Assembly: GCA_026785945.1 (NCBI GenBank)
Contig: JAJAZD010000179.1
Span: forward strand, 1-33,263
Source: Pseudonocardia sp.
GTDB taxonomy: Bacteria; Actinomycetota; Actinomycetes; Mycobacteriales; Pseudonocardiaceae
Reading direction: 5' to 3'
DNA: 33,263 nt
Positions 3,039-5,905 of the stretch are shown piece after piece. Each line of letters starts with the position of its first letter. Within the stretch, counting starts at the first letter, position 1. The position numbers were made by a program, and so were the translations under genes. The notes under the pieces were generated by a model. That model was not told where the DNA came from and searched no databases. It was given only the letters and a program-made list of their open reading frames with translations.

Positions 3039-3488
3039 GTGCCGTTGTACGCCGCCTACGGGTCGAACATGGACCCGGCGCAGATGAAGGAACGTGCCCC
3101 GCACTCGCCGACGGCCGGAACGGGGTGGTTGCAGGGTTGGCGCCTCACGTTCGGCGGCTCGGACTACGGCTGGGAGGGCGCCCTCTCCACCGTGGTCGAG
3201 GAGCCCGGCTCGCAGGTCTTCGTCGTGCTCTACGACGTGCCCGATCCCGACGCCGCCCAGCTCGATCGCTGGGAGGGCGGCGAGATGGGGATGCACAAGA
3301 AGCTCCGGCTGCGCGTGCACACCCTCGAAGGTGACGTCCTGGCCTGGATCTACGTTCTCAACGACTACGAGGGCGGCGAGCCGAGCGCCCGCTACCTGGG
3401 CGTGCTGGCCGATGCGGCCGAACAAGCAGGCGCACCGGACGACTACGTCGCGGCCCTGCGCAGCCGCCCGAGCAGCAAGTCCACCTAA
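3039..3488 (+). CDS. Gamma-glutamylcyclotransferase-like protein
   Basis: A 149-residue protein of the gamma-glutamylcyclotransferase (GGCT/AIG2-like) fold. The diagnostic YGSNM motif is at residues 7-11, where the family binds the gamma-glutamyl moiety, and a family-like pattern of short strands and a FVVLYDV segment follows. Members release 5-oxoproline from gamma-glutamyl compounds, but the substrate in actinobacteria is unclear. The GTG start is set by the TAGTCT box 6 nt upstream. Its position between lpdA and an amidohydrolase is the one I recall for Rv3304 in M. tuberculosis; that orthology is inferred from context and not tested. Confidence 0.75.
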   Translation: MPLYAAYGSNMDPAQMKERAPHSPTAGTGWLQGWRLTFGGSDYGWEGALSTVVEEPGSQVFVVLYDVPDPDAAQLDRWEGGEMGMHKKLRLRVHTLEGDVLAWIYVLNDYEGGEPSARYLGVLADAAEQAGAPDDYVAALRSRPSSKST

Positions 3489-3540
3489 CCCGCGAGTCGG
3501 GGTCCGCGTGCCCGCGAGTCGGGGTCCGCGTGCGCGAGTC
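3489..3540. repeat. 22-nt-period CGCGAGTC repeat array, left of the DUF559 gene
   Basis: Two perfect 22-nt direct copies at 3489-3510 and 3511-3532 are followed by a partial third copy. The core CGCGAGTC occurs at 3491-3498, 3513-3520 and 3533-3540. The array runs into the stop codon of the DUF559 gene (3539-3541). The reverse complement of the core, GACTCGCG, recurs three times with 22-nt spacing on the other side of that gene. Confidence 0.85.
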
Positions 3541-4495
3541 AGGCGGCCGGTCGGTCCCGGTGCCTCCGCCCTGCCAACGTTCCGACGAGGCGTCGGCTCA
3601 TGTCGACCCCACGGCAGGCGAAGGCATCGACGAGTTCCTGCTCGAACCGTGCCGGGCTCCTGAGATCGTCGGCTCGTACCGCGATCCGGATCCAGCCGCG
3701 CCTACGGAGATCCTCGGAACGAGCCTCGTCCTCGGCGGCCCGGCCGGCATGCGCGGCGTGCCCGTCGTACTCCAGCACGATCCGCAGGTCCGGCCAGGCG
3801 ATATCCAACCGGTAAACCTCCCGCCCGTGCGGACCGACCAGCGACCAGTTCACCTCGGGCACGGGGAAGCCGGAGTCAACGATCCGCCACAGCATCCAGC
3901 TCTCGGCCGGTGACTCGGCACGGCCTGTGGCAAGTCCGAGAAGCTGTGCGCCACGGCGCGTCCCTCGCGGGTCACGCCGCTGCGCCAACCGCTTCGCGAT
4001 CGTGGCGCGGAACTGCTCCCGCCGACCCGGTTCGATCATCGCCAGGGCCTCGTCGAGCACGGCGACCGCGTCGGGTGGACGCGCGGTGCACAGCATGTCC
4101 GTCATCGTGCGGTCGAAGCCCAGAACCGGCAGGTCGTTCACGTAGCCGAGATCGCCGGGCGTCAGCGGCCCGTTGTGCACCACGAGACCGGAACGGGACC
4201 GCAACCAGTGCCCGTACGGCGCGATGACGTGCACCGGCGTCGGCTCGACCGCCCGGCAGCCGTGCAGGTACGCCGCGGTCGGCCCGGCCAGCACGACGCC
4301 CGGGCCTCCGAGGCAGACGGCGGCGGACGCGAGCGTCAGCGGCTCGTCCGCCCGCACCGCCTCGACCAGGACACCCGACCACGGCGACGCCCACAACCCC
4401 GACTCCTGCGCCCGCCTGACCTCGTATCCCCCGAGACGCGTGATGGCGTCCCGTCGGGAAAATGCTCCGTGCCGCCCGAATTCGACGTTGCCCAT
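3539..4495 (-). CDS. AbiEi-like N-terminus plus DUF559 (PD-(D/E)XK) protein
   Basis: A 318-residue protein. The N-terminal part (about residues 10-110, with FSRRDAITRLGGYEVRRA and VVLAGPTAAYLHGC) resembles the winged-helix and following region of AbiEi-type antitoxins. The C-terminal part (about 195-300) resembles DUF559, a Vsr-like restriction-endonuclease fold, with an Asp in YRLDIAWPDLR, then VLEYDGHAAH and a closing positively charged segment. Such genes are common and variable in actinobacteria; whether they act in DNA repair, defence or as toxin-antitoxin pieces is not established. No AbiEii-type nucleotidyltransferase is adjacent. The gene is bracketed by inverted arrays of GACTCGCG repeats and preceded by two TGTGGACAA boxes. 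The ATG at 4495 has no clear ribosome binding site. Confidence 0.7.
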   Translation of the reverse strand: MGNVEFGRHGAFSRRDAITRLGGYEVRRAQESGLWASPWSGVLVEAVRADEPLTLASAAVCLGGPGVVLAGPTAAYLHGCRAVEPTPVHVIAPYGHWLRSRSGLVVHNGPLTPGDLGYVNDLPVLGFDRTMTDMLCTARPPDAVAVLDEALAMIEPGRREQFRATIAKRLAQRRDPRGTRRGAQLLGLATGRAESPAESWMLWRIVDSGFPVPEVNWSLVGPHGREVYRLDIAWPDLRIVLEYDGHAAHAGRAAEDEARSEDLRRRGWIRIAVRADDLRSPARFEQELVDAFACRGVDMSRRLVGTLAGRRHRDRPAA

Positions 4496-4546
4496 ACCTA
4501 TGACGGTGGGCTGTCCGGACCGCGGGCGGCACCCTCACCTCAGAAC

Positions 4547-4575
4547 TGTGGACAACTCACGGGCATTGTGGACAA
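4547..4575. promoter_or_regulatory. Two TGTGGACAA boxes (DnaA-box-like) 20 bp apart
   Basis: TGTGGACAA occurs at 4547-4555 and again at 4567-4575, in the same orientation, about two helical turns apart. Its complement TTGTCCACA is the consensus DnaA box of high-GC actinobacteria. The pair sits 50-80 nt upstream of the DUF559 gene. It could bind DnaA or be an autoregulatory site for the neighbouring protein. The sequence match is seen directly; any function is inferred. Confidence 0.5.
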
Positions 4576-4597
4576 CGGGCGGACGCGCTCAGAACGC

Positions 4598-4649
4598 GAC
4601 TCGCGCGCACCCACACCCCGACTCGCGCGCACGGAAAGCCCGACTCGCG
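4598..4649. repeat. 22-nt-period GACTCGCG repeat array, right of the DUF559 gene
   Basis: GACTCGCG occurs at 4598-4605, 4620-4627 and 4642-4649, spaced exactly 22 nt. The first two copies extend to GACTCGCGCGCAC. Spacer sequences differ between copies, unlike the left array. It is the inverted counterpart of the array at 3489-3540. Confidence 0.8.
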
Positions 4650-4669: not shown

Positions 4670-5905
4670 TCAGGAGGTGAGGGCTGTCAGCGCGGCTGTG
4701 GTCAGGATGCGGACGCCGACGGGCAGGGCGCGCTCGTCCAGGTCGAAGGTGGACTGGTGGAGGTCACGCATCGGGCCGTGACCGGGCCACACGCCCAGGC
4801 GCGCCAGTGCGCCGGGCAGGTGGTCGAGATACCAGGCGAAGTCCTCGCCGCCGGTGGACTGCTCGGCGTCCGTGGACGCGTCGGGGCCCAGTGTCGTGGC
4901 AGCGGCCGCGGCCAGCATGCCGCTGCTCACTGCATCGTTGACCACCGGCGGCACGCCACGTGTGTACTCCAGGGAGAAACCGATCCCGGCCGGGGCGAGG
5001 ATCGCCTCGATCAGCCCGCGGACCTTGCCCTCGAGCAGCATCCAGGTGGCGTGGTCGGCGGTGCGCAACGTCCCGCGGAGTATCCCGTGCCGCGGGATGG
5101 CGTTGGCCGCCTCGCCGGCCTGCACCGCACCCCACACCAGGACGGTGCCCGAGCGGGGGTCGACGTGGCGGGTGAGGAGCAGCGGAAGCTGCGTGACCAG
5201 CAGACCGAGCGACAGCACGAGGTCCGCGGTGAGGTGCGGACGGGCGGTGTGCCCGCCGGCCGAGGTGAGCGTCACCTCCAGCAGATCGCACGCCGAGGTG
5301 ATGGGACCGACGCGGGTGCCGAGCTTGCCGACCTCGAGACGCGGGTCGCAGTGCAGTGCGAAGATCCGCTGCACGCCCTCCATGGCTCCGTCCGCGACCA
5401 TGTCGACCGCCCCACCGGGCTGCACCTCCTCTGCGGGCTGGAAGATCAGCCGGACACGCCCGGGCAGCGACGGCGCCGAGGCGAGCGCGAGGCCGGCCCC
5501 GAGGAGCATGGCGGTGTGCGCGTCGTGCCCGCAGGCGTGCATGGCGTTCGGCACCGTGGACGCGAAGGCCAGGCCGGTGTCCTCCCGCAACGGGAGCGCG
5601 TCGAGGTCGGCTCGCAGGGCGACACAGCGGTCGCCGTAGCCGATGTCGCAGACCAGGCCCGTGCCACCGGGGAGCGTGCGGGGTTCCAGACCGACGGCCA
5701 TCAGCCGCCGCGCGACGAGTTCGGTGGTGCGGTACTCGGCGCGGCCGAGTTCGGGGACGGCGTGCAGGGAGCGACGCCAGGCGACCACGTCGGAGCGATG
5801 GGCGGCCAGCCAAGCGTCCAGCCAGGGCGGCCCGCTACCTGCGCCGAGGTCCTCGACCACGGGCTCGGAGGACAGGAGGTCCGTGTGTGCGTCCAGCAAG
5901 GTCAC
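4670..5905 (-). CDS. M20-family amidohydrolase (AmiA/AmiB-like)
   Basis: A metal-dependent amidohydrolase of the M20D group (hippurate hydrolase/N-acyl-amino-acid amidohydrolase type), 411 residues from the chosen start. Key motifs in order: RSLHAVPELG near the N-terminus, the metal-binding region ADLDALPL, HACGHDAH with its Cys and His ligands, QPAEEVQPGGA with the catalytic Glu pair, AGGHTARPH in the dimerisation domain, and STGGEDFAWY plus the C-terminal LHQSTFDLDE, where the last metal ligand is expected. The substrate cannot be told from sequence. In M. tuberculosis amiA1/amiB1 lie at the equivalent place, from memory. The GTG at 5905 is a best guess: a weak GGTGG precedes it, and the frame is open upstream to 5995. 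Confidence 0.82.
   Translation of the reverse strand: MTLLDAHTDLLSSEPVVEDLGAGSGPPWLDAWLAAHRSDVVAWRRSLHAVPELGRAEYRTTELVARRLMAVGLEPRTLPGGTGLVCDIGYGDRCVALRADLDALPLREDTGLAFASTVPNAMHACGHDAHTAMLLGAGLALASAPSLPGRVRLIFQPAEEVQPGGAVDMVADGAMEGVQRIFALHCDPRLEVGKLGTRVGPITSACDLLEVTLTSAGGHTARPHLTADLVLSLGLLVTQLPLLLTRHVDPRSGTVLVWGAVQAGEAANAIPRHGILRGTLRTADHATWMLLEGKVRGLIEAILAPAGIGFSLEYTRGVPPVVNDAVSSGMLAAAAATTLGPDASTDAEQSTGGEDFAWYLDHLPGALARLGVWPGHGPMRDLHQSTFDLDERALPVGVRILTTAALTALTS

Follow-up and report, generated by a model that had tools for sequence, protein, structure and literature searches.

A DUF559-subfamily gene lying between two inverted arms of a repeat with a 22-nt period was analysed in a window of DNA from the soil bacterium Pseudonocardia sp. 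(assembly GCA_026785945.1, contig JAJAZD010000179.1, positions 1-33,263; "the window" is this whole stretch of 33,263 nucleotides, and the own genome of 4.46 Mb is labelled G000). Comparison of the sequences of relatives shows the association of gene and arms, the period, the orientation of the arms and, with three misfits, the matching of repeat dialects, and suggests that the nuclease gene and its cognate dispersed repeats probably make up one REPtron-like system built from unrelated parts.

Bracketing of one DUF559 subfamily by repeat arrays

The initial annotation had reported three cores on each side of the gene in opposite orientation, and a left array merging into the stop codon of the gene. 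Both observations were reproduced at the same coordinates (the innermost left core shares bases with the stop codon, which reads TCA on the plus strand at 3539-3541), but the regularity holds exactly on the right side alone, the left cores being spaced by 22 and 20 nt. The core 8-mer by itself shows no clear enrichment in the window (11 matches against a shuffle mean of 7.66, with at least 11 in 18 of 100 shuffles), and the period-22 signal on the two flanks of the gene reaches 23.5 and 21.5, the maxima of 200 shuffles being 9.5 and 10.0. The core alone is thus near the shuffle level, and the regular spacing is what exceeds chance.

Syntenic DUF559 proteins were aligned and used to search seven genomes, which gave 9 places of the close subfamily and 31 of distant DUF559 genes. 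Arrays flank six of the nine close-subfamily places, at different loci, and any DUF559 gene as the partner was rejected, since none of the 21 distant loci examined carries GACTCGCG arrays. With a refined alignment we identified 43 subfamily genes in 34 of 46 genomes (no copy in 12, one in 26, two in 7 and three in 1), of which 42 were examined, the third copy of G012 being left out. Allowing one core mismatch, outward-facing GACTCGC-type arrays or cores are present on both sides of 28 genes and on one side of 8, some one-sided genes sitting at contig ends, and a wrong-way array of this type was found within 700 bp of none of the 42. The other six also carry arrays with a 22-nt period, four with a related, AACTCGCC-like core (G009a with GGCGAGTTTGCCGCTGCCGCCC, G019a, G032a and G071) and two with wholly different units (G012b around TTCAGTGGGTTTGGCACGC; G347, of another genus, with CGAGTGTCGAACGCTCAGGTCC).

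The same was found by a dialect-free test for period 22, in which a signal had to exceed all 200 shuffles: both sides were positive for 26 of the 42 genes, one side for 11 and neither side for 5 (G083, G005a, G031, G011 and G032b), and a core scan of these five detected cores or short arrays on both sides in four and on one side in one. As controls, 19 of the 21 distant DUF559 loci (two were without a gene call) gave both sides 0, one side 1 and none 18, and 211 ordinary genes gave 0, 12 and 199, respectively. With 100 shuffles, period 22 was detected on 68 of 84 flanks, the periods 18-21 and 23-25 on 1-13, period 33 on 4, and period 44, its double, on 45. The view that the arrays are ordinary repeats unlinked to the gene, housekeeping-like genes being also found between arrays, was overturned by this subfamily comparison. 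In G030 (L398, 3581-4536) tblastn finds the subfamily gene in two frames, perhaps because it is broken or misassembled there; both of its sides still carry arrays.

Co-variation of repeat unit and protein

Units differ at 0.164 of positions between the two arms of one element and at 0.436 between different elements. For the 37 of 42 elements with a usable unit (five had none), protein distance correlates with unit distance (Mantel r=0.474; 0 of 5000 permutations). Twelve elements come from genomes with two copies; in nine of them the unit resembles that of the nearest protein relative in another genome more than that of the other copy in the same genome, in two the reverse holds, and one is a tie. 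Ten usable elements of nine genomes were compared with the dispersed unit of their own genome, typed from the first matches listed: seven show 0-3 mismatches in 22 positions, the mean against other genomes being 8.6. The repeat unit therefore tends to follow the protein, as far as sequences can tell. Because of this co-variation, the proposal of the initial annotation that the arrays are recognition sites of the protein gains indirect support; its assignment of recognition to the nuclease domain does not, for the predicted fold points to the AbiEi-like part.

The co-occurrence in relatives, which the initial annotation had put forward as a check, was indeed observed. Among 44 genomes, 24 are array-rich, with at least 20 two-unit matches, and subfamily genes are present in 23 of these 24 and in 9 of the other 20 (Fisher p 0.0003, not kinship-corrected). 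For class 1 genes, defined after seeing the data as those with a model match to position 314 or beyond, the counts are 19 of 24 versus 2 of 20 (Fisher p 4e-6, again not kinship-corrected).

Arrays across the own genome and other genomes

Searching the own genome for two 9-mers separated by 6-18 nt gave 86 matches, and none for the reversed pattern; 41 loci, on contigs up to C322, yielded 58 arrays of 2 to 6 units, each unit composed of the 9-nt core CGACTCGCG followed by a 13-nt species-typical spacer. This genome-wide occurrence rules out that the arrays are private to the window gene. Unlinked scatter would have spoken against the initial annotation; the arrays are scattered, but linked to this DUF559 subfamily, though not to distant DUF559 genes.

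The two-unit pattern was matched in 30 of 60 genomes including the own, with up to 291 matches per genome; three of the 30 do not belong to the genus and have a single match, which is short-spaced in the two cases displayed. Among the matches listed are many Pseudonocardia species, Actinophytocola, Saccharothrix, one Nocardioides and two metagenome-assembled genomes labelled as other phyla. Of 298 genomes of the order, the three-unit pattern was matched in four: the own genome, G074 of the same genus, G351, which belongs to another genus, and, by a single match, G210. The reversed control gave 22 matches in G347, which belong to another array family, and one in G173. Arrays of the same core were also seen in Nocardioides sp. 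zg-DK7169 (L143), Saccharothrix yanglingensis (L223 and L250) and Actinophytocola gossypii (L140, L152, L204, L208 and L243), and a search at E 1e-20 for relatives of the window protein found none beside these other-genus arrays within stretches of up to 8 kb.

Several other readings were considered and rejected. The two-unit pattern has no match in IMG/VR viral contigs, which speaks against a phage-borne array; a plasmid-borne element is represented by a single distant match of 29% identity; no strand skew expected of a replication-direction signal was obvious by eye along G071; and a small hairpin conserved in every unit was seen by eye in some dialects only.

Position of the arrays relative to genes

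Stop codons lie within 25 nt of 33 of the 58 own arrays, and start codons of 7. The corresponding numbers in the genome regions retrieved from three relatives are 28 and 3 of 51 (G009), 16 and 4 of 30 (G071) and 13 and 1 of 22 (G072). Counted by neighbourhood, an array is within 25 nt in 36 of 54 3'-end neighbourhoods of the own genome versus 7 of 41 at 5' ends. The 3'-end arrays of G000 mostly read CGCGAGTC in the sense of the gene (27 of 30 neighbourhoods within 25 nt, median 7), as do those of G009 (21 of 32, median 13). Those of G071 stand farther from gene ends (11 of 22, median 64), and those of G072 have the opposite sense to G000 (13 of 16, median 8) and are often built as two arms that enclose a short centre. 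In the G072 regions L114-L123, two inward arms surround a centre of about 21 nt that seemingly holds a short palindrome of its own.

For 80 array-adjacent G000 genes, array-adjacent reciprocal best hits in the retrieved regions of the three relatives number 7 in G071, 4 in G072 and 1 in G009, against 5, 1 and 0 for 410 non-adjacent genes. A 100-kb comparison of three relatives revealed some slots with arrays of another dialect or with unrelated hairpins. The slot of one G072 two-arm array holds a long hairpin, TTCAGGAAAGCC..., in G034 (L296, 1415-1477) and a different hairpin in G022 (L307), and from these sequences palindromes behind genes appear interchangeable at this slot. Another slot is shared without a DUF559 gene: in both G000 (L047, 6531-6971) and G071 (L126, 10592-11593), a small gene, the same in the two and DUF167-like by eye, has arrays on its flanks and adjoins a 1054-aa gene that is isoleucyl-tRNA synthetase-like by eye.

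Genomic contexts of the gene

In the window an AIG2-like gene and an M20 peptidase gene face the DUF559 gene with their 3' ends, and 28 of the 42 copies adjoin one or both of these genes, including G351 (M20) and G347 (AIG2) of two other genera. Seven copies have another shared neighbour, two a third one, and four contexts were seen once; G012b lies in the wider neighbourhood of the first (AIG2/M20) slot. This spread of contexts indicates that the gene is mostly stable, but has moved or been copied several times. AIG2 and M20 genes are directly convergent without a DUF559 gene in some genomes, e.g. L087 and L093, and arrays occur behind M20 at places without the gene in G035 and G011. The slot in G031 carries a different DUF559 allele in the opposite orientation between flanks 94-96% identical to those of G025 and G076, and the similarity to both ends at the outermost cores.

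The bracketing unit of G347 has 130 two-unit matches in its genome, and at 10 of 18 distinct places inspected there are two arms in the layout of the gene, with a short centre replacing the gene. Some G347 arrays (L447, L460 and L470) meet outer end to outer end around CTCGCGAG, an arrangement like a junction of two elements.

Features of the window

The coordinates of the features are listed in Table 1. The outermost core of the left arm starts 2 nt past the AIG2 stop codon. The two TTGTCCACA sites upstream of the gene are presumably DnaA-box-like. Similar sites, often paired 20 nt apart, were seen upstream of 7 of the 19 distant DUF559 genes (L345, L348, L350, L354, L355, L357 and L362), and are perhaps a wider trait of the DUF559 family. 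Positions 1-118, at the contig start, form a long G/C-only stretch in blocks that looks like a sequencing or assembly artefact.

Table 1. Features at the DUF559-subfamily locus, in positions of the window
Feature	Position	Strand	Description
AIG2-like (gamma-glutamyl cyclotransferase-like) gene	3039..3488	+	neighbour outside the element; one side of the usual slot
Left arm	3491..3541	-	three units, GACTCGCG on the minus strand, spacing 22 and 20
Left cores CGCGAGTC	3491-3498, 3513-3520, 3533-3540		
DUF559-subfamily gene	3539..4495	-	318 aa; AbiEi-like N-terminal part and Vsr/I-Bth0305I-like nuclease part (predicted)
Nuclease part (predicted)	3605..3919	-	residues 193-297
AbiEi-like part (predicted)	3926..4495	-	residues 1-190
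TTGTCCACA	4547..4555	-	upstream of the DUF559 gene
Second TTGTCCACA	4567..4575	-	20 nt from the first, same strand
Right arm	4597..4649	+	three CGACTCGCG units, spacing 22/22; GGG after the outermost core
Right cores GACTCGCG	4598-4605, 4620-4627, 4642-4649		
M20 peptidase gene	4670..5905	-	neighbour outside the element; other side of the usual slot

Predicted protein and relation to known systems

The predicted fold of the protein joins an AbiEi-like part to a Vsr/I-Bth0305I-like nuclease, and this model would assign the reading of DNA to the AbiEi-like N-terminal part instead of the nuclease domain. E198, D231, E242, H249 and D256, the putative catalytic residues, are invariant in all 12 aligned relatives. 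A Pfam scan of 12 members at E up to 1 returned MTES_1575, DUF559, AbiEi_1 and DUF2726 only, and the Y1 HuH transposase (Y1_Tnp) was absent from these matches. DUF559 (PF04480) was matched by 10 of the 12 (best E 3.7e-6), the window protein scoring 17.6 bits against a gathering cut-off of 20.6, and the AbiEi similarity of the window protein reaches an E of 1e-8 at best. Identity to the window protein is 46-67% among relatives, the best 30 M20 relatives showing 78-83%.

Bacterial genomes are known to contain dispersed repeats that are paired with a gene for a HuH-type transposase. In REPtrons, composed of a RAYT (TnpA-REP) gene and REP/REPIN sequences, the gene is flanked by two inverted repeats, the same repeats are dispersed in the genome, and the gene is described as mostly single-copy, without evidence of mobility of its own in the parts of the sources consulted (PMC2817692, PMC3116915, PMC8266576). 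The present subfamily resembles this arrangement in its flanking inverted repeats, its dispersed cognate repeats and its mostly single-copy gene, but the protein is AbiEi-like plus Vsr-like, whereas RAYT is a Y1 HuH transposase, and its repeats, which lack a GTAG head, are non-palindromic 22-mers arrayed in tandem to form one or two arms; a short palindrome with such a head was not seen by eye in nine dispersed unit consensus sequences.

Among the closest known systems are also the AbiEi and Rv2827c antitoxins. The window protein is AbiEi-like as in an AbiE type IV toxin-antitoxin system, but a DUF1814 toxin gene is not adjacent, the Pfam neighbours in this window, where the check was made, being AIG2 and M20. 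The predicted fold likewise includes the Vsr-like catalytic fold of Vsr-type homing endonucleases; unlike Vsr and the homing endonuclease I-Bth0305I, the subfamily has its gene between, not inside, the presumed sites, and its nuclease activity is putative. Tn7-type ends contain multiple 22-bp sites. The element is similar to Tn7 in having several sites of about 22 bp per end in inverted orientation, but lacks a DDE transposase, a single gene lying between the arms in the window and in relatives with both arms close. In the open-access literature no comparable system was found among the matches listed. DUF559 is named in PMC12907096, and neither Vsr nor DUF559 was found in the portion of PMC10448857 consulted.

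Alternative explanations

The arrays could instead be genome-wide sites of a host function, such as transcription ends or chromosome layout, with the DUF559 protein as an autoregulated site binder whose nuclease part is secondary or inactive and which moves nothing. The location of arrays behind stop codons (36 of 54 versus 7 of 41 neighbourhoods, or 33 of 58 arrays) and the array positions common to species agree with such a function, as does the binding by AbiEi-family antitoxins of 23-bp repeats in their own promoters, described in PMC7319586. We nevertheless consider this explanation rather unlikely: the putative catalytic residues are invariant, the exact two-unit match is absent in 11 of 44 genomes (other dialects, as that of G080, can escape it), the unit of G034 differs from those of its relatives G072 and G022 at a shared slot, and the orientation of arrays to genes differs between G000 and G072. 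We think it improbable that other machinery spreads the arrays, with the DUF559 gene having settled among them at hot spots as a passenger. The array-rich genomes that lack class 1 (G010, G019, G020, G071 and G072), unrelated hairpins in some slots of other species and the arrays behind M20 without the gene would fit a passenger, but bracketing by repeats is found in several contexts and extends, with other units, to two other genera, wrong-way arrays are absent, the unit follows the protein, and none of 211 ordinary genes is bracketed on both sides. A defence or addiction module, in which the nuclease is restrained by chromosomal arrays and attacks array-free DNA, is suggested by the union of AbiEi-like and nuclease parts in one protein and by the fast evolution of the gene relative to M20; with no known defence family matched beyond AbiEi, and no toxin partner among the neighbours scanned, we regard it as highly improbable.

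Several observations weigh against the REPtron-like system itself. The elements G009a, G071 and G072 are the three misfits to their own dispersed units. When the dispersed units of G071 and G072 are compared with the units of all 37 elements, the closest are that of the close relative G083 for G071 (1 mismatch) and that of the relative G022 for G072 (2 mismatches), as if the cognate gene had been lost from both genomes. G083 has a class 1 gene but 7 matches, and the sole array compared is decayed there; G071 has 62 matches without class 1. A gene needed for the spread of arrays, not for their upkeep, would fit this pattern of G083 and G071, but the arrays without a cognate gene in G071 and G072 and the array-poor G083 are unexplained by the model. 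The initial annotation had further suggested that gene and arrays move together; that they form a unit is supported by the subfamily comparison, the contexts and the two other genera, but a clean empty site was not found.

Proposed mechanism and significance

For the REPtron-like system, it is fairly likely that the protein binds, cuts and spreads the arrays. The AbiEi-like N-terminal part would bind the 22-nt units, which, being two helical turns apart, would be presented on the same face of the DNA, and the Vsr/homing-endonuclease-like part would cut at the array. Repair or recombination would then spread arrays to permissive places behind genes, as single or paired arms that may or may not include the gene. 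The gene itself lies mostly beside AIG2 and/or M20 and has changed place a few times. On balance it is somewhat probable that the subfamily represents a repeat system of a new class, selfish or domesticated, in which an AbiEi-type reader fused to a Vsr/homing-type cutter maintains lineage-specific 22-nt arms and spreads them through the genomes of actinobacteria. Such a system would be a counterpart of REPIN/RAYT with an origin of its own, and its binding specificity could be traced as a joint change of protein and repeat.

If true, this would be a second, unrelated solution, indicating that partnerships between a gene and dispersed repeats arise more than once. It would also provide a testable DNA target for this DUF559 subfamily and dozens of natural protein/site pairs for learning how AbiEi-type proteins read DNA, and would explain one type of intergenic repeat that occurs across Pseudonocardia and also in some relatives.
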